Positions 13,831 to 47,795 are shown, counted from the stretch's first letter. The stretch: DNA of 61,342 nucleotides from Syntrophobacterales bacterium (GCA_023512475.1 JAILZL010000016.1:1-61342), one strand, 5' to 3'. The notes: generated from the sequence alone by a model not told the origin. Made by a program: numbers and translations.

Positions 13831-14012
13831 GCCCCCTGAGGCGCCCCGGCCGGCCCGTCTCTGGCCATGGGCGCAGTTTTAATCCCCTCCTGCCCTGAGG
13901 CCGATAAGTGAGGCAGACACCATCCCCCGGCCTGGGGGAGCAAGCCCCGGGCCGGCGTCCGGGCCCGTCCGGCCCGCGTGCCAGGTCTGGAGCAGAAGGG
14001 AGAATTCGCGCC

Positions 14013-14621
14013 GTGGCCCTGGGCCCCCTCACCCTGGACATCCTCATCGCTGAAGACGACCCCACTCTGAGGGAGGCATTGGCCGGTTTCCTCCGACGCC
14101 GCGGCCACCGGGTCACCTTGGCGCGTCACGGCGGCGAGGCCCTGGCGGCCCTGGAACATGACGACTTCTCGTTAGTGATTACCGACCTCATCATGCCGGT
14201 GGCCGACGGCCTGGAAGTCCTGCGGGCCGCCCGGCGGCGGGAGCCCCCGCCCCTGGTGCTCCTCATGACGGGCTATGCCTCCATTGACAGCGCCATCCAG
14301 GCCATCCGGGAAGGGGCCTACGATTATCTGCGTAAGCCCTTCAAATTACAGGAGATCGAGGTAGCGGTAGCCAATGCCTCCCGTCTGTTGGCCCTGTATC
14401 AGGAAAATCAGACCCTGTTGCGGCGGCTGGAGGACCTCTCGGCCCGGCTCACCGGCCTGAGCCCGGAGGGTCTCACTCAGTCCGGCGCCTCCCCGGCCTC
14501 TGCCACCCCGGAGGCCCCGGCCTCGGCGCCCCGGGACCCGGACCTGGAGCGGCTGCGCCTCCTGTACCAGGAGCGTCTCCTGTCAGAGCCGGAATATCAC
14601 ACTTTGAGACACAAAGTCTGA
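14013..14621 (+). CDS. Receiver-domain protein with SHOCT-like C-terminal tail
   Basis: A response regulator of about 202 residues. The receiver domain (about 8-125) has LIAEDDP acidic pocket, acceptor Asp near 57 in VITDLIMPVADG, MTGYAS and Lys in LRKPFKL. No DNA-binding or enzymatic output follows. After a coiled segment and an Ala/Pro-rich linker the last 25 residues (DLERLRLLYQERLLSEPEYH, then TLRHKV) resemble the short SHOCT motif. I start at GTG 14013, preceded by AAGGGAG; the open frame extends to 13908 with no binding site. Five nucleotides separate it from the HD-GYP gene, so the pair probably act together. Confidence 0.82.
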   Translation: MALGPLTLDILIAEDDPTLREALAGFLRRRGHRVTLARHGGEALAALEHDDFSLVITDLIMPVADGLEVLRAARRREPPPLVLLMTGYASIDSAIQAIREGAYDYLRKPFKLQEIEVAVANASRLLALYQENQTLLRRLEDLSARLTGLSPEGLTQSGASPASATPEAPASAPRDPDLERLRLLYQERLLSEPEYHTLRHKV

Positions 14622-14626
14622 CGCCG

Positions 14627-15424
14627 ATGGCGCGTATGCCTACCCTGATGCATAGCAAACTTCAGGCCATCATGAACGTGGGGCCCATCAAGGCGCCCTT
14701 CTCTCCGAACCTGGCCCCCGCGGCCCACCGGGAGCAGAGGGGAGAGCCCCCCCACAGCCTGGTCTCCCCCCAGGTCAGCGCCACCATTCATGCCCTCCTC
14801 AGGACCCTGGCCGCCCGGGATCCGTATACCGCCCACCATTCCATCCGGGTGACGGAGATTGCCACCTGCTTTGCCCTGCACCTGGGACTGAGCTCCCGGG
14901 AGATCGCCATCCTGCAGAATGGCGTGATTCTCCATGACATCGGCAAAATCGGCATCAGCGATGCCATCCTCCATAAGCCCGGCCTCCTCACCCCGGAGGA
15001 GCGGGCCATCATCACCACCCACCCCCTCATCGGCGAGCTCATCGTCGAGCCCCTGCAGCTTGGCCCCGGCGAGCGGGAGATCATTCTCCTCCACCATGAA
15101 CGCTGGGATGGCACCGGTTATCCCCGGGGAATCGCCGGCCCGGAGATCCCTTTTCTCTGCCGGCTCACCATGCTGGCGGATGTGTATGATGCCATGATCA
15201 GTGACCGCCCCTACCGGCCCCGTTTCCCCATGGCCCAGGCCCTGAGGGAGATCGAAAGCCAGGCCGGCCGCCACTTCGATCCTGAGCTGACCGGGAAATT
15301 TGTGGCCTTCCTGGCCTCCGCTTGGCAGAAGATCCCCGGCGGTCTGCATCTCCCCGCCCGGCCTGCCGTCCCGGCCCCGGAAGGCCGCTCCCGCACCCAG
15401 ACTTCGGTCTCACCCCCCACCTGA
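14627..15424 (+). CDS. HD-GYP domain protein (cyclic-di-GMP phosphodiesterase)
   Basis: 265 residues. The HD-GYP domain (about 45-235) holds DPYTAHHSIRV, ILHDIGKIGI (HD pair near 103), PGLLTPEE, THPLIGELI, LLHHERWDGTGYPRG (GYP near 164) and LADVYDAMISDRPYR. All key metal and GYP residues are present, so hydrolysis of c-di-GMP to pGpG or GMP is expected. The N-terminal 45 residues are low-complexity. The receiver gene just upstream would give a two-protein version of the RpfG-type REC-HD-GYP architecture. No signal peptide, so cytoplasmic. Confidence 0.92.
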   Translation: MARMPTLMHSKLQAIMNVGPIKAPFSPNLAPAAHREQRGEPPHSLVSPQVSATIHALLRTLAARDPYTAHHSIRVTEIATCFALHLGLSSREIAILQNGVILHDIGKIGISDAILHKPGLLTPEERAIITTHPLIGELIVEPLQLGPGEREIILLHHERWDGTGYPRGIAGPEIPFLCRLTMLADVYDAMISDRPYRPRFPMAQALREIESQAGRHFDPELTGKFVAFLASAWQKIPGGLHLPARPAVPAPEGRSRTQTSVSPPT

Positions 15425-17097: not shown

Positions 17098-17250
17098 TCA
17101 GACGGAGCTCAGCCGCTGGACGATGCGCTGCCGGAGGCGCCGCTGATCCCGCTGGCGCCGGAGCCGCCACACCAGCCATCCCACCAGTCCCAAAAGCAGG
17201 GAGGGGGCAATGCCGGGGGTATGTGTCAAGGGATTCCACCAGGGGGACAT
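17098..17250 (-). CDS. 50-residue single-pass membrane protein of the polysaccharide operon
   Basis: A short gene with a strong binding site, GGAGGAGGT directly before ATG 17250. The product begins MSPWWNPLTHTP, has one membrane helix (GIAPSLLLGLVGWLVWRL) and then a very basic helical tail (RRQRDQRRLRQRIVQRL). By the positive-inside rule the tail is cytoplasmic. It starts 19 nt after the stop of the M48 gene on the same strand, so it is the last gene of the operon that encodes the GT2 synthase and the TPR-barrel protein. No family is recognised; a small accessory subunit of the membrane synthase is a reasonable guess. Confidence 0.65.
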   Translation of the reverse strand: MSPWWNPLTHTPGIAPSLLLGLVGWLVWRLRRQRDQRRLRQRIVQRLSSV

Positions 17251-17269
17251 ACCTCCTCCAGGGCACGGG

Positions 17270-18580
17270 TTACAAGGGACCCGGGCGCCGATTCAGGTCC
17301 GGCGACTGCAGAAAGACCTCCGCAGCTTTGCCGGCGGTGAAGTAGGACGCCACTTTCTGCAACCGGGCCAGGCGCTCCAGAGGCGCCGGGTGGTGATCCA
17401 GGAAATACGTGCGCTCAAAAGGGTCCTGCACCACCGCGCCCAGCCGTTCCCAGACGGCCAGGCCGCGCTGAAGATTGAAACCCGCCAGATAGGCATACCA
17501 GAGCCCATAGGTGTCGGCTTCCCGCTCGTCCTCCCGGGAGAAGGCGCTCACCACGGCGTCGTCCAGCACCCCCGGCAGGCGCTCCTCCCGCCACACCGCC
17601 CGGCGGAAATTCATCAGTCCCTGGAGGGAGCGGGTGGCGAAGGCCCCGGCCAAGTGCCAGACCTGGCCGGCCAGCCCCCCCACCCGGCGATGACCCGCCC
17701 CCCGGGTCAGGTGGCCGTGCGCCTGGTGCGCCAGCTCATGGCCCACCACCACTGCCAGCTCGTCGTCATTGAGGCAGAAAGACACCAGCCGGCGGGTGAG
17801 GATGACCCGCCCCGGGGCCGCGTAGGCGTTGATGCGGTTATCCTGGGTATCCACCAGGATGGCGTAATCCGCCGGCAGGTGCTGGGGGTAGAGGGTAACC
17901 TTAAACCGCTCGCCCTGCCGCTCCACCAGGAGTTCCACCGGCCCGGTGAGGTAGCGCTCCCGGCTCTCCATGCGGATGTATTTGATCTCCAGCATCAGGG
18001 CCACCAGGACCTCCCCCGGAAGCTGAAAGACCGTCAATTGCTCCGGGGGCTTGCGGCCATACCGGGGCCGGCTGCTCACCCAGAAGGCATCCCGGACCAG
18101 GTCCCGGGCCATCCGAATCTTTTCATCCCAGTCCCGCACCCAGGGGTGGATGGGCCAGTTGTTCACCGCCACCAGCACATCCCCCTGCCGCAGTCCGGCA
18201 TCGTGGGCCGGGGAGGGCTGCCAGACGTTGTCGATCACCACCTTGCCCGATTCGGTGACCCACCAGTCAAAGCCCAAAAAAGGGTAAGTGCGCCCATGAA
18301 TCTGGGGCAGGACCGCCAGCTGCCGCAAAAACACCCGGGACACCCGCTCCAGGGCCCAGGAATTGTGCGGGTGGCGCTGCACTGCCGCCAGCTGCACCTC
18401 CTCCACTTCCTGGGCCGTGGGGGTGGGCCGGGTGACTTCGGCACAGCCGGCCAGCAGCGCCAGCCCCAGGCTCAGGGCCAGACCAACCCCCCGCCCCGCC
18501 CTCCCGGGACCGGTGCCGGGCCGGCCAGGGTCCCCCCGGCCGCCGGCCCCCAAAGCCCTGCCTTGCGGGAAGTCCGACAT
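17270..18580 (-). CDS. M48-family metalloprotease lipoprotein with PDZ-like domain
   Basis: About 436 residues. An Arg/Gly-rich N-terminus leads to a hydrophobic segment ending LALLAGCAE, a lipobox that predicts attachment to a membrane facing the periplasm. A PDZ-like segment follows (about 110-145, GKVVIDNVWQPSPAHDAGLR then QGDVLVAVNN). The peptidase domain carries zinc-binding HELAHQAHGH (about 280) and the third ligand Glu in DEREADTYG. ATG 18580 follows CAGGGTGATCTG; ATG 18598 is possible. It starts 22 nt after the TPR-barrel stop. By analogy with BepA, which polices LptD assembly, it may serve the outer-membrane barrel encoded just upstream; that is inference. Confidence 0.85.
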   Translation of the reverse strand: MSDFPQGRALGAGGRGDPGRPGTGPGRAGRGVGLALSLGLALLAGCAEVTRPTPTAQEVEEVQLAAVQRHPHNSWALERVSRVFLRQLAVLPQIHGRTYPFLGFDWWVTESGKVVIDNVWQPSPAHDAGLRQGDVLVAVNNWPIHPWVRDWDEKIRMARDLVRDAFWVSSRPRYGRKPPEQLTVFQLPGEVLVALMLEIKYIRMESRERYLTGPVELLVERQGERFKVTLYPQHLPADYAILVDTQDNRINAYAAPGRVILTRRLVSFCLNDDELAVVVGHELAHQAHGHLTRGAGHRRVGGLAGQVWHLAGAFATRSLQGLMNFRRAVWREERLPGVLDDAVVSAFSREDEREADTYGLWYAYLAGFNLQRGLAVWERLGAVVQDPFERTYFLDHHPAPLERLARLQKVASYFTAGKAAEVFLQSPDLNRRPGPL

Positions 18581-18602
18581 CAGATCACCCTGACCCATGG
18601 CT

Positions 18603-21600
18603 TCAGAACACATAGCGCAAGGACAGGCCCACGGTGAGAATGCGGTAGTTGTCCACCCATTCCCGGAAATAGAATACGTGGGGGTCGATGAAGAAATTAT
18701 GCACCGGCTCCCACTCCAGGGCCGCCAACGCTTGGAAGGCCGGACCCCACTCTCCGTGCTGCCCCACCACCTGCAAGGAACTCTGGAGGATCAGGGTGGG
18801 GAGGCGGAACACCTGCCGGCTGAAATCCACGGTCAGCCCCAAGGCATGGTAATAAGGCGGGCTGAAGTAAGCGGGGCGCTCGTCCTCATACAGGGCCAGG
18901 TAGTAATGGGGCGTCAGGCTGAGCTGCATCCGCGGCTGGGAGAGGGCCTGCCAGGTCAGGCCCTGGTAGAGGCTGAACCGCCGGTTGTCGTCGGAGAAGA
19001 AGGCTCCGGAGACGCTGCCCCGCCACTCCAGCCCGGGCCGGAACTGGTGTGACCACCCCAGATCCACCTGATGGGAGGTGATAAGCCGGGCGTCCCCCAG
19101 GTTGAGGACGCTCTGGAAAAGCCGCGGGTAGAGGTGCGGGTCCTGATCGAAGATATCCCGGCGGCTGTACCGCAGGAAAAAGTCGGTCTGGGGGGTGAGG
19201 GAGGCGTCCACCTGCAGCGACCCCATCAGCCGCTCCCGGTTGTCCTTGCGGGTGAAGGTGGCGAGACGGGTAACATCAAAGAACGCCGGGGCCGGGAAGG
19301 GCACCAGCTCCTGCCCCTCCTGCCGGATCTCCCGGTCCACCCGCTTCCAGTAACGCCGCCAGCTGAGTTCGCCGCTCAGGCGCAGGCGGTCGCTCACATG
19401 CACCGGCCCGGCCCCCAGGGAGACCTCCAGGCGGCGGAGACGGCTCTTGTCGTGGGCCTCCTGCCGGTAGACCTTGACCAGCCCCAGATCCACCGGCCCC
19501 TGCTCCTGGGAGCGGGACCGCTGGTTGTACTCCCTAAACTCCACCGCCAGGTGCACCGGCAGGGTGCGGGCGGCCCAAAAAGAGGCCGAGGCCCGGAAGA
19601 GGGTGCCATACAGGCCATTGCTGTCGTCAAAGTACAGGGTTTCCGGGTGCAGCACCGGGATCATGCCCGCCCGGGGCAGGGAGCCCTGCCATTCCCGGTC
19701 CGGCCGGGAGAACTGCCACGGCCGGAAGCCCTCCTCCGGTCGCCTCTCCCCCCGGGCGTAGGGAAAGCCCCGGGGGGCCATCTGCGGCCGCATCTGCTCC
19801 TTGACATACTCCAGCTCGTGGAGGAGCTCCACGTCCTGGGGGGCGTGCTTCAGGGCTTCGGCATAGGCCTTGTAGGCCCCGCCCCAGTTCTGGCGGGCCC
19901 GGGCGCGCCGCGCCGCCGCCACCCGGGCCTCCTGGGAGCCGGGCTGCCGCCGGAGGATCTCCTCATAGAGCTGCCCGGCCCGGCGGTCGCCCAGCCCCTC
20001 CAGCACCTGGGCCTTCTCCATGAGCAGGGCCTCGGGGGCCGCCATCCCGGCCAGATTCTCCAGGGTCCGGAGGGCGTCCTGATAGCGGCGCTCCAGGCGT
20101 TGGGCCTTGGCCACCAACAACTGACCCGGCACATAATCCGGATGCTCCGGGGGAATTTTGGCCACCGCGGCCTTCACCCCCTCATACTGCCCCCGCATGA
20201 GATACAGCCGGGCGGCGGTGAGGGGGGCCTGGCCCTCCGGATGCTCCTCCAGGCGGGCCAACACCGGCCCGAAATCCCGGGCCAGCATCTGGCATTGGGA
20301 CAACAGCTGCTCCGCCCGGGCATCCCGGGGCTTGAGGCGCAGGGCGTGGCGGCAGTAGTCCGCCGCCACCCGGGGTTCCTCCAGCTCCAGGGCCAGGGCC
20401 GCCAGCCCCAGAAGTTCTCCGGGGTTATCCGGGAATTTGTGATGCCGGTATTCCCGGAGCACATGCAGGAGGTAATCCAGCTTGCCCCCATGGCGGCCGG
20501 CGCTGCCCACAAAGTAGGCCAGGGAGGCCACATATTCCGGACTGTCCACCTTCACCCCGGGAATGCGGGCGGCCACCCGGGAGAGGTCCTCAAATCGCCC
20601 CACCTTGGGGAGAAGGTGGGCCAGGATGAGAAGAGAGGGATGATGATAACGCTGGCGGCGCAGGTTCTTCAGGCACAGGTCCACCGCCAGATCCACGGCC
20701 TCCGGGGAGGTGCTGTGGCACAGGGCCCGGGCCACCCAGGTGCGCTCTTCCAGCCCCAGGCCCGTCTCTTCCCTCTCTCCCTTCTCCCGCCAGGAGGCTT
20801 CCTGAACCTCCAGCTCTTCTTTCGCCTCCCGGGCCCGGCGGTGAGCCTCCCGGGTCCAGAGGCGGGCCTCCCGCCAGTCCGCCGGCGGCCGCACCTTCTG
20901 CGGGAACTGACTGCCGTACAGGCGCAGGGCCAGGTGCTCCGCCTGGCGCCAGTCCTTCTGCGCCAGGGCCGCTTCGATGAGGGCCGCCAGCACCGCCCGG
21001 CTCTCCGGGCCGTTTCCCGAGGCGGGCAGAGTGCGCAGCAGCTCCTGGGCTTCCTTGGGCCGCCCCACATAGGTGAGGACCCGGGCCCGGAGCAGGCGGG
21101 CGCCCAAATCCCGGGGCTCCCGGTTCCCATACTCCTCCAGGCGGGCCTGGGCACCCTCCAGATCCCCGGCCCAGAGGCACAGCCGGGCCTGCTCCAGGAG
21201 CAGCCGGGGGTCCTGGGGCCGCGGGCAGGCCTTAAGCTCCTCAGCCGCCGCCTGCCATTTTTTGGCCTCCAGAAGCAGCGCAATGCGTCTGAGCCGGGCG
21301 GCCACATCCCCCTGCCGGGCGGCCAGCTCGCCGTAAGCGGCGATGGCCTCCTCCCGGGAGTCGGGCTGAAAGGCCAGGGCCTCGGCCAGCAGCCGCAGGG
21401 CCTCCGCGTCCTGGGGATGCTTCTCCAGATAGGCCTTGAGATAATGGGCCGCCTGACCCCAGTGTTTCTGATAGAAATGGAGCTGGCCCAGAAAGAGAAG
21501 CAGGCGGGGGTACTTGGGGTGGTCCCGCTCCACCGGTTTCAGGACCTCCACCGCCTCGGCATAGCGGTGCGCGTACGAATAGGTGAGGGCCGCCTCCCAG

Positions 21601-22730
21601 CGGAGCTCCCCTGTGAGGAGCTGGCGCCGCCGGGCTTCGTCCCACATGCCCGCCGCCTTGCTGAACTGCCGGTTTTGGGCATACAGGCGGGCAAGGTTGA
21701 TGATGGTCTCCTGGTGGGTGTCGCCGGCCTCCCAGGCGCGGCGGTATTCCCGGCGGGCCCCCTCCGGGTCGCCGGTGAGGAGCAGCTCCAGGGCGTACCA
21801 GCGCCGCACCTCGGGATCCGGCTGGTCCTCCAGCAGAGGCGCCAGAACCGCCGCCGCCTCGGTGTGCTTGCCCTTCTGGGACCAGAGCCGGGCCAGCTTC
21901 AGGGCATATTCCTTCTTGCCCTGGTTTTTGCCGTAGAGCCAGAGGTAATGCTTCAGGGCCGCGTCGTCCCGGCCGGCGGCGTCCGCGACTTTGGCCGCCT
22001 CCTCCCGCCAGGCCGCCTGGTCCCGGGCCCGCTCCAGCAGCCGGTCATAAATCTCGCTGGCCGCCTGATAGTCCCGCTGCCAGTAATACAGCAAGGCCAA
22101 CTGGTGCAGCGCCTCCTGATCCTCGGGATGGGCCGCAGTGTCCTCCTCCATGAGGGCGATGGCTTCCCGGTAGCGGTGCCCGGCGGCCAGGAGATTCACC
22201 AGCTGCCGGCGCACCTCCCGATCGGGCCGGAGACGGTGGAGGCGGCGATAATAGCCGATGGCCAGCTCCCGCTCCTCCTCCCGGGCGCTGCAGAACTGGG
22301 CGGCAAACAGGAGCAGGTCCGCATCCTCGGGGTGGCCTTCCAGGTGGCGGGCCAGGTGCTCCAGGGCCTCCGGCCGCCGCTCCAGCTGATCCAGGGCCTG
22401 GGCCAGACCTTTCAGGGCGGCGGTGGCCTGGGGATACCGGGGCCACAGCTCACTGAAGAGGGCCGCGGCCCGCTCCGGCTGTCCCGCCTTGAGGTAGAGC
22501 CAGCCCAGAAAGGTGCCCACCTCGGGATGACCGGGTTGGCGCTGCCAGGATTTTTCCGCCAGCTTCAGGGCCTGGGAGAGCTCCCCCCGTTTCTCCGCCT
22601 CCTGGGCCGACCGGTAGAGCCCCACCGGCGAGCGCCAGAATTCCGGATCCCGCCGGTGGGCCAGGGTGAACACCGCGGCCAGAAACAGCAGCGGCAGCAA
22701 TGCCAGAAACCACCGGGCCTTAGATGCCAT
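18603..22730 (-). CDS. Giant TPR protein with C-terminal outer-membrane beta-barrel (exopolysaccharide export)
   Basis: 1375 residues. An N-terminal hydrophobic segment (about 5-23) serves as signal or anchor. A long array of TPR-like helical hairpins (about 35-960) has repeated patterns such as GxLYLKAGQPERAAALF, LALLYYWQRDYQAA and LLVAKAQRLERRYQDAL. From about residue 1000 the sequence switches to alternating aromatic/polar beta strands and ends in LSLRYVF, with the terminal Phe typical of outer-membrane barrels. This TPR-plus-barrel plan is that of BcsC, PgaA and PelB, which guide a polymer through periplasm and outer membrane. The start overlaps the GT2 stop by 11 nt, so translation is coupled. 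Confidence 0.87.
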   Translation of the reverse strand: MASKARWFLALLPLLFLAAVFTLAHRRDPEFWRSPVGLYRSAQEAEKRGELSQALKLAEKSWQRQPGHPEVGTFLGWLYLKAGQPERAAALFSELWPRYPQATAALKGLAQALDQLERRPEALEHLARHLEGHPEDADLLLFAAQFCSAREEERELAIGYYRRLHRLRPDREVRRQLVNLLAAGHRYREAIALMEEDTAAHPEDQEALHQLALLYYWQRDYQAASEIYDRLLERARDQAAWREEAAKVADAAGRDDAALKHYLWLYGKNQGKKEYALKLARLWSQKGKHTEAAAVLAPLLEDQPDPEVRRWYALELLLTGDPEGARREYRRAWEAGDTHQETIINLARLYAQNRQFSKAAGMWDEARRRQLLTGELRWEAALTYSYAHRYAEAVEVLKPVERDHPKYPRLLLFLGQLHFYQKHWGQAAHYLKAYLEKHPQDAEALRLLAEALAFQPDSREEAIAAYGELAARQGDVAARLRRIALLLEAKKWQAAAEELKACPRPQDPRLLLEQARLCLWAGDLEGAQARLEEYGNREPRDLGARLLRARVLTYVGRPKEAQELLRTLPASGNGPESRAVLAALIEAALAQKDWRQAEHLALRLYGSQFPQKVRPPADWREARLWTREAHRRAREAKEELEVQEASWREKGEREETGLGLEERTWVARALCHSTSPEAVDLAVDLCLKNLRRQRYHHPSLLILAHLLPKVGRFEDLSRVAARIPGVKVDSPEYVASLAYFVGSAGRHGGKLDYLLHVLREYRHHKFPDNPGELLGLAALALELEEPRVAADYCRHALRLKPRDARAEQLLSQCQMLARDFGPVLARLEEHPEGQAPLTAARLYLMRGQYEGVKAAVAKIPPEHPDYVPGQLLVAKAQRLERRYQDALRTLENLAGMAAPEALLMEKAQVLEGLGDRRAGQLYEEILRRQPGSQEARVAAARRARARQNWGGAYKAYAEALKHAPQDVELLHELEYVKEQMRPQMAPRGFPYARGERRPEEGFRPWQFSRPDREWQGSLPRAGMIPVLHPETLYFDDSNGLYGTLFRASASFWAARTLPVHLAVEFREYNQRSRSQEQGPVDLGLVKVYRQEAHDKSRLRRLEVSLGAGPVHVSDRLRLSGELSWRRYWKRVDREIRQEGQELVPFPAPAFFDVTRLATFTRKDNRERLMGSLQVDASLTPQTDFFLRYSRRDIFDQDPHLYPRLFQSVLNLGDARLITSHQVDLGWSHQFRPGLEWRGSVSGAFFSDDNRRFSLYQGLTWQALSQPRMQLSLTPHYYLALYEDERPAYFSPPYYHALGLTVDFSRQVFRLPTLILQSSLQVVGQHGEWGPAFQALAALEWEPVHNFFIDPHVFYFREWVDNYRILTVGLSLRYVF

Positions 22731-24369
22731 ACACCTGCCTCGGATCCATGGCGGGGGTGAACTGGGGCCGCCTCAGGCCCGCCAGAATCAGGTCGCCCAA
22801 GGTCCAGATGACAAAGGCCGAAAACAGGGAGTTGAAGACCACCAGATTCACCGGGGCCCAGCCGCAATGGAGCGACCACAGGGGCAGGGTCAGGTGCAGG
22901 ACCACCACCACCAGCTGCGGCAACAGGCACCACCAGGGGCGCACCTCGGCGAAGGGGGCATGATTATTGAGGCGGTACGAGGGCTTGCGCCCCGGCGGAT
23001 ACAACAGGGCGGCGCCGATGGCCGCGGCATACACCGGAAACAGGCCGCAGAGCATGCGGAACTGCTTGGCCGCCTCCTTGTGGTAAAAGAGATAGCGGAA
23101 CATGAGCAGGGTAGCCCCCAGATACGCCCCCCGCAGGGCCACATACTGCCACTCCCGGCCTTCCAGGATGGTGTAGCCCTGCCAGTAGGCCACCAGGGGA
23201 ATGACATAGAACACCGGGAACACCAGGCCGCTCACCAGATAACTCACCATGATCACCAGAAAATGGAGGCGCTGGCTCAGGGTGAGACCGGGTTTGCGCA
23301 CCGGGTTGTCCCAGAAAAACAGGCGCATGGTGTCCAGGCACCACTGGAAGCGCTGCCGGTAGACCCCGGCCAGGTCCTGGGGCGCCAGGCCCCGGGTGAG
23401 GGCGTACGGGTAATAAATCCCCTTCCAGCCCCGGCTCACCAGCTCATAGGAGGTGGTGAAATCCTCGATGAGGTTCCAGGTGGCGAACCCGCCCATCTCC
23501 AGAAGCGCCGCCCGGCGGTACATCACCCCGGAGCCGCAGGAGATGACCGCATTGGCCCGGTCGTTGGCACACTGGATGACCTCATAAAAGATCTCGTCCC
23601 GGTTGTAGAAGGGATCCCCCTCCGGCAGGTAGAAGGATTGCCGGGACTGAACGTAAGCCACCCGGGGGATCTGGAAGAAGCCCACCAGCCGGGTGACGAT
23701 GTCCGGCTGGGGCACCTGGTCGGCGTCCAGCACCAGGATGAATTCCCCGTCGCTTTGGCCGAGGCCGAAATTGAGGTTGCCGCTTTTGGCATCCCGCCGG
23801 GGCAGGCCCGCCTGGACCCGGGAATGGTAGTGAAAGCCCAGGGAGCAGGCCAGGGCCTCCACCTGGGGGGAGCCGCCGTCATCCAGCACATGCACGGTGA
23901 GGGGCTCGTAGGCGATCCGGCGCACGGCCTGCAGGGTGGTGTGAATGACGGGCAGGGGCTCGCCGCAGCAGGTGACGAAGACATCCACCCGGGGCGGAGG
24001 GGTGGGGAGGGGCAGACCCTCGGGCCGGTGAAACCTGAGGTGCCAGATATCAAAGGCCAGGCAGGCCAGAAGCAGAAAAGCCAGGGCCTCCGCCGCCAGA
24101 AAGCAGAGGTCCGGGAGGCCCCGGCCCGGCCACACCACCCAGGCCAGCCAGCCCAGATAGGTGAGGCCCAGGGCCAGGGTCAACAAAGAGGCGTCCTGGG
24201 CCGCCAGCCGCCGGGGCCGGTCCTCCAGGTCCCGATAGCGGCGGTAGGGCAGGCGCCCGCGGCGGTCGGCCCACCAGACCCGGAGCGTGTGCGCCCCAAA
24301 CCCCGGCCTCTCCCGGGTCGGGGCCGGGGGCGGCGGGCCTCCGGATGACACATCGGGGGACATCGGCAT
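22720..24369 (-). CDS. Cellulose-synthase-like processive glycosyltransferase (GT2), no PilZ domain
   Basis: Inner-membrane polymerase of 549 residues. Two membrane helices (about 40-95) precede a GT-A domain with VHVLDDGGS (about 163), LVLDADQ (about 213), LIEDF (about 303) and the acceptor-site motif, here QRFQW (about 341). The family consensus is QxxRW, so Arg is replaced by Gln. Five to six helices follow, and the protein ends without a PilZ domain, unlike BcsA. It probably polymerises a sugar from a UDP-donor and extrudes the chain. ATG 24369 follows GGGAAGGAA. It is the first of four tightly spaced genes (GT2, TPR-barrel, M48, 50-residue protein). Confidence 0.88.
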   Translation of the reverse strand: MPMSPDVSSGGPPPPAPTRERPGFGAHTLRVWWADRRGRLPYRRYRDLEDRPRRLAAQDASLLTLALGLTYLGWLAWVVWPGRGLPDLCFLAAEALAFLLLACLAFDIWHLRFHRPEGLPLPTPPPRVDVFVTCCGEPLPVIHTTLQAVRRIAYEPLTVHVLDDGGSPQVEALACSLGFHYHSRVQAGLPRRDAKSGNLNFGLGQSDGEFILVLDADQVPQPDIVTRLVGFFQIPRVAYVQSRQSFYLPEGDPFYNRDEIFYEVIQCANDRANAVISCGSGVMYRRAALLEMGGFATWNLIEDFTTSYELVSRGWKGIYYPYALTRGLAPQDLAGVYRQRFQWCLDTMRLFFWDNPVRKPGLTLSQRLHFLVIMVSYLVSGLVFPVFYVIPLVAYWQGYTILEGREWQYVALRGAYLGATLLMFRYLFYHKEAAKQFRMLCGLFPVYAAAIGAALLYPPGRKPSYRLNNHAPFAEVRPWWCLLPQLVVVVLHLTLPLWSLHCGWAPVNLVVFNSLFSAFVIWTLGDLILAGLRRPQFTPAMDPRQVYGI

Positions 24370-24615: not shown

Positions 24616-25605
24616 TTACCCTTCGAGGCCGTGATACCGGCGGTACCAGGCAATAAAGCGGGGAATGCCCTCTTCAATGGGGGTGCGGGGATAAAAACCC
24701 AGCTTGCTTTGGGCCAGGGAGATGTCGGCAAAGGTGGCGGGCACATCCCCCGGCTGCAGGGGCAGCAGCTCCTGCCGGGCGGTGACTCCCAGGTGCTCCT
24801 CCAGGAGGCGGATCACTTTGGTGAGGGGCTCCGCCCGGTGGTTGCCGAGGTTGAAGATCTCATAAGGCGCCAGCCCCTCGGTGAGGAGCGCCGCCACAAT
24901 GCCCGCCACCGCGTCCTCGATGTAGGTGAAATCCCGTTCCATGCGGCCGTAATTGAAGACCTTGATGGGCTGCCCCGCCAGCATGGCGGCGGTGAACAGC
25001 CACATGGCCATGTCCGGTCGGCCCCAGGGCCCGTACACCGTAAAGAGGCGCAGCCCCACGGTGGGGAGGCCGTAGAGGTGGGTGTAGGCGTGGGCCATGA
25101 GCTCGTTGGCCCGTTTGGTGGCGGCGTACAGGCTGATGGGGGTGTCCACCCGCTGGCTTTCGGCAAAGGGGAGTTCGGCGAGCCCGCCATAGACGCTGGA
25201 GCTGGAGGCGTAGACAAAGCGCTCCACCTCGTGGCGCCGGGCCAGCTCGATGAGGTTGAGGAAGCCCTCCAGGTTCGCCTCCTGGTAGGCAAAGGGGTTG
25301 AGGAGGGAATAGCGCACCCCGGCCTGGGCCGCCAGGTGGCAGATCTTCCGGGGCCGGTACTCCCGGAAGAGGGCTTCCAGGCCCCCCCGGTCCACCAGGT
25401 CCAGCTCCAGGGAGACAAAGCCGGGATGGCGCCTCAGTTCCCGATCCCGGTCCCGTTTCAGGGCGGGGGAGTAGTAGTCGTTGTAATTGTCCAGCCCCAC
25501 CACAGTGGCCCCCCGGGCCAGCAGGGCCTGGCTCACATGAAAGCCGATGAACCCGGCGCTGCCGGTCACCAGGAAGGTCAGTCCGGTAAGGTCCTTGTCC
25601 CCCAT
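24616..25605 (-). CDS. NAD-dependent nucleotide-sugar epimerase (UDP-glucuronate 4-epimerase-like)
   Basis: Extended short-chain dehydrogenase/reductase of 329 residues. The Rossmann motif is TGSAGFIG (about 14-21), followed by GLDNYNDYY, HLAAQAGVRYS, the catalytic SSSSVYG and YAATK (Tyr near 162). The YNDYY and HLAAQAGVRYSL segments are characteristic of UDP-glucuronate 4-epimerases (CapI/GAE type), which make UDP-galacturonate, more than of GalE. It lies 246 nt upstream of the GT2 operon on the same strand, so it may supply the sugar donor for that polymer. The AT-rich spacer with its own promoter-like site suggests at least partly separate expression. Confidence 0.88.
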   Translation of the reverse strand: MGDKDLTGLTFLVTGSAGFIGFHVSQALLARGATVVGLDNYNDYYSPALKRDRDRELRRHPGFVSLELDLVDRGGLEALFREYRPRKICHLAAQAGVRYSLLNPFAYQEANLEGFLNLIELARRHEVERFVYASSSSVYGGLAELPFAESQRVDTPISLYAATKRANELMAHAYTHLYGLPTVGLRLFTVYGPWGRPDMAMWLFTAAMLAGQPIKVFNYGRMERDFTYIEDAVAGIVAALLTEGLAPYEIFNLGNHRAEPLTKVIRLLEEHLGVTARQELLPLQPGDVPATFADISLAQSKLGFYPRTPIEEGIPRFIAWYRRYHGLEG

Positions 25606-46916: not shown

Positions 46917-47795
46917 TTAAAATTTCACCCGCTGGAAACGCTCCGTCCGCACCTTTTCCTTGGGACCCGGCGGGCTCTCCCGGGTAAGGGCCCTGACCCG
47001 GGCCAGGCGCTCGCCGGTGGGGGGATGGGTGCGGAAGATGCCGCCGCCGCCCCCGGACATCTTCCCCAGCACCGCTGCCAGGGCCCCGGGCTGATAACCG
47101 GTGCGGCTCAGCATGGACACCGCCTCCCGGTCCGCCGCCTCCTCGGCCTGGCGGCTGTAGCCTGTCACCACCAAAGTGCGGAAAACATCCTCCACTGCGC
47201 CTTTAAAGAGGTTGAGCACCGCCCCGGCCACCCCGCCGCCATATTGCCGGGCCGCCTCGGTGCCCGCCGTGGTCAGCACCTCGCTCCACCGGGCCTGGCT
47301 GATGGAGTTGAGGCCGTCCTTATGGGCCACGTGGGCCACTTCATGGGCCAGCACCGCGGCCAGCTCATCCTCGCTGCCGCACATCCGGATGAGCCCCCGG
47401 GTCACCAGGATGAGGCCGCCGGGGCAGGCAAAGGCGTTGGGCTCCAGGGTGTCCAGGACGGCGAAGTGGTAGCCCCGGAAGGGGTTGGGCCGGGAGGATT
47501 TGCGGGCCACCGCCAGCCCCACCTGGTTGACATACAGGGTGGCCTCGGGGTTCCGATACAGGGGGTAGCGGGCCAAAAGCCGGGCCGCCACCGCCCGCCC
47601 CAGATAATACTCCTCGGCCTCGCTCAACGGCCGGGCGGCCTGCACCGCTTTGGTGCCGGTTTTGGTCACCACCTCCGCCGCCTTCTGGGCCTGGGACGGC
47701 AGGGGCGGGGTGGGAAGGGGCAGGGAGGGGATATTGAAGCCCGCCACCAGGGGCAGGCCCACCATCAGGATCAGGAAATGGGCCAGCCGGCGCAT
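46917..47795 (-). CDS. Secreted M48-family metalloprotease
   Basis: 292 residues with an N-terminal signal peptide (about 1-19, LILMVGLPLVAG). The peptidase domain has AFACPGGLILVTRGLI, zinc-binding AHEVAHVAHKDGL and the third ligand Glu in RQAEEAADREAVSML, followed by HPPTGERLARV near the end. It is a periplasmic M48C-type (LoiP/YcaL/BepA-like) protease without TPRs. The start codon overlaps the stop of the upstream SH3-domain gene by one base (ATGA), so the two are translated together. It is a different subtype from the M48-PDZ lipoprotein at 17270-18580. Confidence 0.92.
   Translation of the reverse strand: MRRLAHFLILMVGLPLVAGFNIPSLPLPTPPLPSQAQKAAEVVTKTGTKAVQAARPLSEAEEYYLGRAVAARLLARYPLYRNPEATLYVNQVGLAVARKSSRPNPFRGYHFAVLDTLEPNAFACPGGLILVTRGLIRMCGSEDELAAVLAHEVAHVAHKDGLNSISQARWSEVLTTAGTEAARQYGGGVAGAVLNLFKGAVEDVFRTLVVTGYSRQAEEAADREAVSMLSRTGYQPGALAAVLGKMSGGGGGIFRTHPPTGERLARVRALTRESPPGPKEKVRTERFQRVKF

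Follow-up and report, generated by a model that had tools for sequence, protein, structure and literature searches.

A candidate synthase-dependent polysaccharide export operon with an M48-PDZ lipoprotein and no detectable BcsB, conserved across one bacterial order

Bacterial cellulose synthesis is regarded as switched by the binding of cyclic di-GMP (c-di-GMP) to PilZ, and BcsB is, to our knowledge, considered essential for it. A survey of synthase-dependent operons defines cellulose loci by bcsA, bcsB, bcsZ, and bcsC, and attributes one apparent loss of bcsB to the fusion of genes; the word peptidase appears nowhere in it (PMC7112194). The other described systems closest to the locus analyzed here are those for poly-N-acetylglucosamine (PNAG; PgaA-PgaB-PgaC-PgaD) and for Pel, which uses a GT4 enzyme (PelF) with PelA, PelC, PelD, PelE, and PelG. 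A natural system without BcsB and PilZ would show a minimal synthase-exporter unit and a different form of control. A four-gene operon from a Syntrophobacterales bacterium is a candidate for such a system. It lies at positions 17098 to 24369 of a 61,342-nucleotide stretch of DNA (JAILZL010000016.1, the window), in a 2.78-Mb genome of 73 contigs that apparently belongs to the order Desulfobaccales. The evidence favors, with modest confidence, a synthase-dependent system that exports a cellulose-like beta-glucan, operates without BcsB and without PilZ/c-di-GMP gating, and includes an M48-PDZ protease serving the exporter.

All four open reading frames (ORFs) are on the minus strand, exactly where a preliminary description of this DNA had placed them. 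The first encodes a 549-residue GT2 polysaccharide synthase with a CelA-like catalytic domain (22720 to 24369), and the second encodes a 1,375-residue outer membrane exporter (18603 to 22730) with a TPR array at residues ~35 to 980 and a 16-strand barrel at ~1026 to 1375. These are followed by an M48 metalloprotease lipoprotein with an inserted PDZ domain (17270 to 18613; 447 residues from the first ATG) and a 50-residue single-pass membrane protein with a basic tail (17098 to 17250). The GT2 and TPR genes overlap by 11 nucleotides (nt), and 19 nt separate the M48 gene from the last ORF. The first ATG of the M48 gene (18613) is 11 nt inside the TPR gene; the 22-nt gap reported earlier at this junction is correct for a downstream ATG (18580).

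Conservation defines the core of the system. A GT2 homolog was found in 21 of the 22 genomes of the host family, and a second family of the order also encodes it. In the sole host-family genome with no match (G004), the M48 gene lies close to one end of a short contig (5.6 kb), and because of this position the absence is read as an assembly gap. Neighborhoods were compared over 20 kb, counting for M48 only loci in which the contig ran past the TPR gene, and the order GT2-TPR-M48 was kept in 21/21 intact loci representing both families. Because the triad recurs in every relative locus on a long enough contig, its linkage is not due to chance. The GT2 and TPR genes overlap or almost touch in most loci. 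Two more genomes with the triad were added by a scan of 84,980 species; outside the order, the triad was found neither among the 76 loci of that scan nor in the phylum samples. The core is therefore the GT2, the TPR/16-strand-barrel protein, and the M48-PDZ lipoprotein, and the synthase-dependent export operon first proposed for this DNA gains support to that extent.

With all intact triads confined to one order, the M48 gene might be a mere syntenic neighbor kept by shared descent. This explanation is highly improbable, as genes for the epimerase, an HD-GYP protein, a response regulator, MBL, and dnaE have been lost or moved in genomes where M48 was never lost, and the TPR and M48 genes lie close together or overlap in most loci. 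A sugar epimerase gene pointing in the same direction adjoins the operon in 13 of 24 relatives; for the HD-GYP gene, the count is 10 of the 18 loci able to show one. The triad has thus held together while its surroundings changed.

The closest curated relative of the GT2 in Pfam/NCBIfam is the cellulose synthase model CelA, at 194.5 bits (far below the cutoff of 699), which scores higher than the PgaC model (55.6 bits versus a cutoff of 422). No PilZ match was obtained on the GT2 in the domain scan, in agreement with the preliminary description, and two stand-alone PilZ proteins are encoded elsewhere in the host genome. Every GT2 from these operons, and from the sister operons discussed below, has QR(x)QW where classic enzymes have QxxRW; the operon members read QR(F/Y)QW (QRFQW in the window). 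KPxYRxNN or close variants (KPSYRLNN in the window) replace the FxVTPK gating loop of BcsA in the operon enzymes, which retain the DD, DAD, and ED carboxylates. In BcsA structures, it is the QxxRW arginine, together with the gating loop, that engages the UDP end of the donor, so that donor handling or gating is likely to be changed in the operon GT2s. In the GT2 tree, operon enzymes group with the sister GT2s (support, 100/99), followed by GH26-associated GT2s, with classic BcsA far off. The host genome has a second GT2 (G000:C12:23563-24312) with an ordinary QxxRW motif, 28% identity, and an epimerase-like gene nearby. At two loci (L058 and L061), an in-frame stop near the start of the GT2 homolog indicates either a downstream start or gene decay.

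In the exporter, the domain scan detected the TPR array and a weak PgaA_barrel match. A model of residues 820 to 1375 built from 20 sequences (mean predicted local distance difference test [pLDDT] score, 78) contained TPR helices and 16 strands, bearing out the earlier assignment as a TPR protein ending in an outer membrane barrel. The barrel most resembled PgaA (4y25; Z 22.4, 3.3 Å over 273), BcsC (6tzk; Z 21.7), and PelB (9h80; Z 21.4), all ranking above other barrels; the BcsC match fits a Bcs-type exporter, though PgaA and PelB tie with it. PelB likewise combines a long TPR arm and a 16-strand barrel in one protein, but none of the other Pel components was seen in the operon. The PNAG machinery shares a TPR-barrel exporter, a single GT2, and a small membrane protein recalling PgaD; it differs in that the operon GT2 is far nearer CelA than PgaC and its small protein is not conserved. 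No ORF in the operon or the scanned neighbors encoded a PgaB-type deacetylase, a result that covers this region and not the rest of the genome.

The GT2, the BcsC-like TPR protein with its 16-strand barrel, and a GH8 enzyme in the same genome are all bcs-type parts, as would be expected of an ordinary cellulose system in which BcsB and PilZ had diverged past recognition. We consider this quite improbable. In a hidden Markov model (HMM) search with positive controls, BcsB had no match in any of the 29 genomes of the order or the 5 genomes with sister loci. No large periplasmic ORF lies between the GT2 and TPR genes, and the GT2, whose catalytic motifs are altered, forms a clade of its own. Further differences from the Bcs arrangement are that the GH8 gene is unlinked, that the operon encodes an M48-PDZ lipoprotein, and that both GT2 and GH8 belong to separate clades.

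The GH8 enzyme connects the operon to relatives outside the order. The nearest GT2s there come from two Nitrospirota (L099 and L100) and a Desulfobacterota family (f53; L062), where the gene order is GT2, TPR, GH8, the third gene matching PF01270 with E values of 2e-46 and 4e-30. These operons share with the window a sister QxxQW GT2, an adjoining TPR-barrel gene, and the lack of BcsB, but have GH8 as their third gene and no M48-PDZ. In L062, the TPR region spans several reading frames. A Gemmatimonadota locus (L101) has GT2-TPR and then reaches its contig end, and in one further genome (G025; L068) a more remotely related GT2 is accompanied by a PilZ protein encoded separately, pieces of a TPR barrel, and the start of a GH8 gene. 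Within the order, a BcsZ-type GH8 is present in 28/29 genomes, at one locus each and unlinked to the operon (host copy, C58:44803-45576), compared to 15 of 285 other genomes in the phylum sample. No other gene near GH8 was common to both families of the order. In the GH8 tree, the enzymes of the order join those of the sister operons (85/90), separate from BcsZ of the phylum's classic bcs operons (97/96), and they retain the catalytic Glu and Asp. More weight should go to the tree and the sister operons than to the co-occurrence figures, which shared descent inflates. The preliminary description had reported no glycoside hydrolase and no BcsB, and had named a bcsB/bcsZ set elsewhere as a finding that would count against a new system. 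The absence of BcsB extends to the whole order; the absence of a hydrolase is true locally, while a GH8 of the matching lineage is encoded elsewhere in the genome.

A different polymer, made of uronic acid or amino sugar rather than beta-glucan, would be conceivable if the upstream NAD-dependent sugar epimerase/dehydratase (24616 to 25605, minus strand) supplied the donor and GH8 belonged to another pathway. The QxxQW motif and missing FxVTxK gate would suit it, as the donor site of the GT2 may differ, and so would the adjacent, codirectional epimerase. The epimerase is not beside the operon in 11/24 relatives, however, including all members of genus g10, and is probably a variable neighbor outside the core system. 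Because it adjoins in just over half of the relatives, the uronic-acid polymer originally suggested by this UDP-glucuronate 4-epimerase-like gene is not supported. Together with the cellulose synthases as closest sequence relatives of the GT2 and the distribution of GH8 in sister operons and in the order, this makes such a polymer unlikely.

The order-wide feature without counterpart in the sister operons is the protease. The M48 protein matches PF01435 at 73.6 bits (cutoff, 20.3), its Pfam PDZ matches are partial and below cutoff, and the BepA model scores 37 bits against a cutoff of 570. The lipobox Cys (Cys57), HEXXH (292 to 296), EREAD (363 to 367), and HP motif are invariant across the alignment. 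Ala follows the lipobox Cys, as in outer membrane lipoproteins. In a model of the mature protein (mean pLDDT, 72.9), the M48 part matches BepA (6ait, Z 17.2), and the segment inserted at mature residues 54 to 192 has a PDZ fold, matching the HtrA2 PDZ with mature residues 54 to 190 (Z 9.6; root mean square deviation [rmsd], 1.3 over 69 residues) and also the PDZs of DegS, CtpB, and others (Z ~9; rmsd, 1.3 to 2.1). The M48 lipoprotein with a PDZ-like segment noted earlier is thereby confirmed, as is its tight linkage to the GT2 and barrel. It shares with BepA (YfgC) and LoiP the M48 fold, HEXXH, the conserved HP motif, and an envelope location, but unlike them is a lipoprotein with an inserted PDZ, lacks a TPR domain, and is encoded with one exporter. 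At an E value of ≤1e-20, matches came only from genomes of the same order and from two lipoproteins elsewhere (G283 and G173) that lack the PDZ and had neither a GT2 nor a TPR-barrel gene in their checked neighborhoods; in genomes carrying sister operons, the only M48 proteins are generic ones (~30% identity). A PDZ-less M48 lipoprotein with a CATVTGP lipobox lies just upstream of an MsbA-type ABC transporter-like ORF in another member of the Desulfobacterota (L070:8739-9761), and is possibly the ancestral type of the operon protease. The window itself encodes a second M48 peptidase (46989 to 47459, minus strand), ~33% identical over the catalytic part and in an unrelated context.

The linkage data support well the M48 protease as a dedicated part of the operon. 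DegS-type PDZ domains bind the C termini of unassembled porins. BepA promotes or degrades LptD depending on LptD assembly state (PMC8423444). By analogy, the simplest reading of the M48-PDZ protein would be a quality-control protease that resembles BepA and serves the exporter. The protease might instead process a different client, for instance a matrix protein that is secreted, or might activate secretion by clipping the exporter or the GT2: its fold tells only of a protease and a PDZ, and BepA-like enzymes have several clients. We regard this as somewhat unlikely, given that strict linkage to the TPR-barrel gene and the outer-membrane-type lipobox (Cys-Ala) point to an adjoining envelope client. 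Phe is also the last residue of every complete exporter copy, mostly with an aromatic or basic amino acid ahead of it (RYVF, RYAF, or RWRF; LRYVF in the window), and an aromatic C-terminal residue fits the ligands generally preferred by DegS-like PDZ domains.

For the favored beta-glucan exporter, we infer a route in which the GT2 would polymerize the chain and thread it through the inner membrane, and the long TPR arm would lead it across the periplasm to the exporter's own outer membrane barrel. The GH8 endoglucanase would do the work of BcsZ and trim chains that are misdirected or too long. The operon of this order appears to have gained an M48 protease anchored in the outer membrane, with the BepA fold and an HtrA/DegS-like PDZ; this protease most likely recognizes unassembled exporter, perhaps via an exposed C-terminal strand (RYVF), and then matures or degrades it. 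A bolder proposal, which we hold only tentatively, is that these enzymes form a distinct processive GT2 class (QxxQW, with no gating loop, PilZ, or BcsB) that exports glucan with only a TPR barrel and GH8, and that the order evolved a dedicated PDZ-M48 which, by reading the C-terminal strand of the barrel, decides whether the exporter is licensed or destroyed.

Several points weigh against the favored reading. Chitosan, xylan, and mixed-linkage glucan are also substrates of GH8 families, which makes "cellulose-like" a family-level assignment of a putative product. The QxxQW motif and lost gating loop could reflect a different donor or linkage, and a strongly diverged BcsB beneath HMM detection is possible. 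Common ancestry within a single order confounds the co-occurrence of GH8, whose grouping with the sister-operon GH8s is only moderately supported. The link from the protease to the barrel is indirect, and M48 proteases can serve other clients.

In fold classes and general logic, the operon conforms to known synthase-dependent systems. What is new is a BcsB-less, PilZ-less QxxQW clade with GH8 and the PDZ-M48 protease added throughout this order. To the extent that this could be checked, the protease link is undescribed for such systems; searches of the open-access literature found nothing relevant on BepA with BcsC, BcsB-less systems, QxxQW, or M48 in exopolysaccharide operons, which is weak evidence of absence. 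A BepA-type protease, normally a generalist, is here tied to one client by gene order, and the operon offers a genetic handle on the assembly of very large TPR-barrel exporters.

The 50-residue protein, initially proposed as a micro-subunit of the system, is coding but lies outside the conserved core. The ORF is under purifying selection within its genus (ratio of nonsynonymous to synonymous substitution rates [dN/dS], 0.29 to 0.40), and genera g3 and g9, neighbors of the window in the GT2 tree (87/83), have short transmembrane ORFs with a similar RRxRIxRRL tail behind M48. No counterpart was found behind M48 in genera g2, g4, g5, g7, and g8 or in family f2. Confined to genera g1, g3, and g9, it was rejected as a core subunit and is a late accessory of one subclade.

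Convergent with the operon on the plus strand are genes for a response regulator (13908 to 14621) and an HD-GYP protein of the c-di-GMP phosphodiesterase type (HHERWDGTGYPRG; 14627 to 15424). This pair (13908 to 15424) is a variable neighbor outside the core, found beside the operon in about half of loci, and possibly regulates it. A second type of QxxQW GT2 (~550 to 720 residues), followed by a GH26 hydrolase, occurs at L063 to L067 (e.g., L065:6911-10884). With GH26 and no TPR-barrel or M48 gene beside them, these GT2s were rejected as members of the same system, and the set looks like another uncharacterized polysaccharide system. At L065, a BcsS-like barrel gene was scanned beside the GH26-type GT2, with PEP-CTERM-like ORFs nearby. 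The GT2-GH26 pair also occurs in two genomes of the window's own order.

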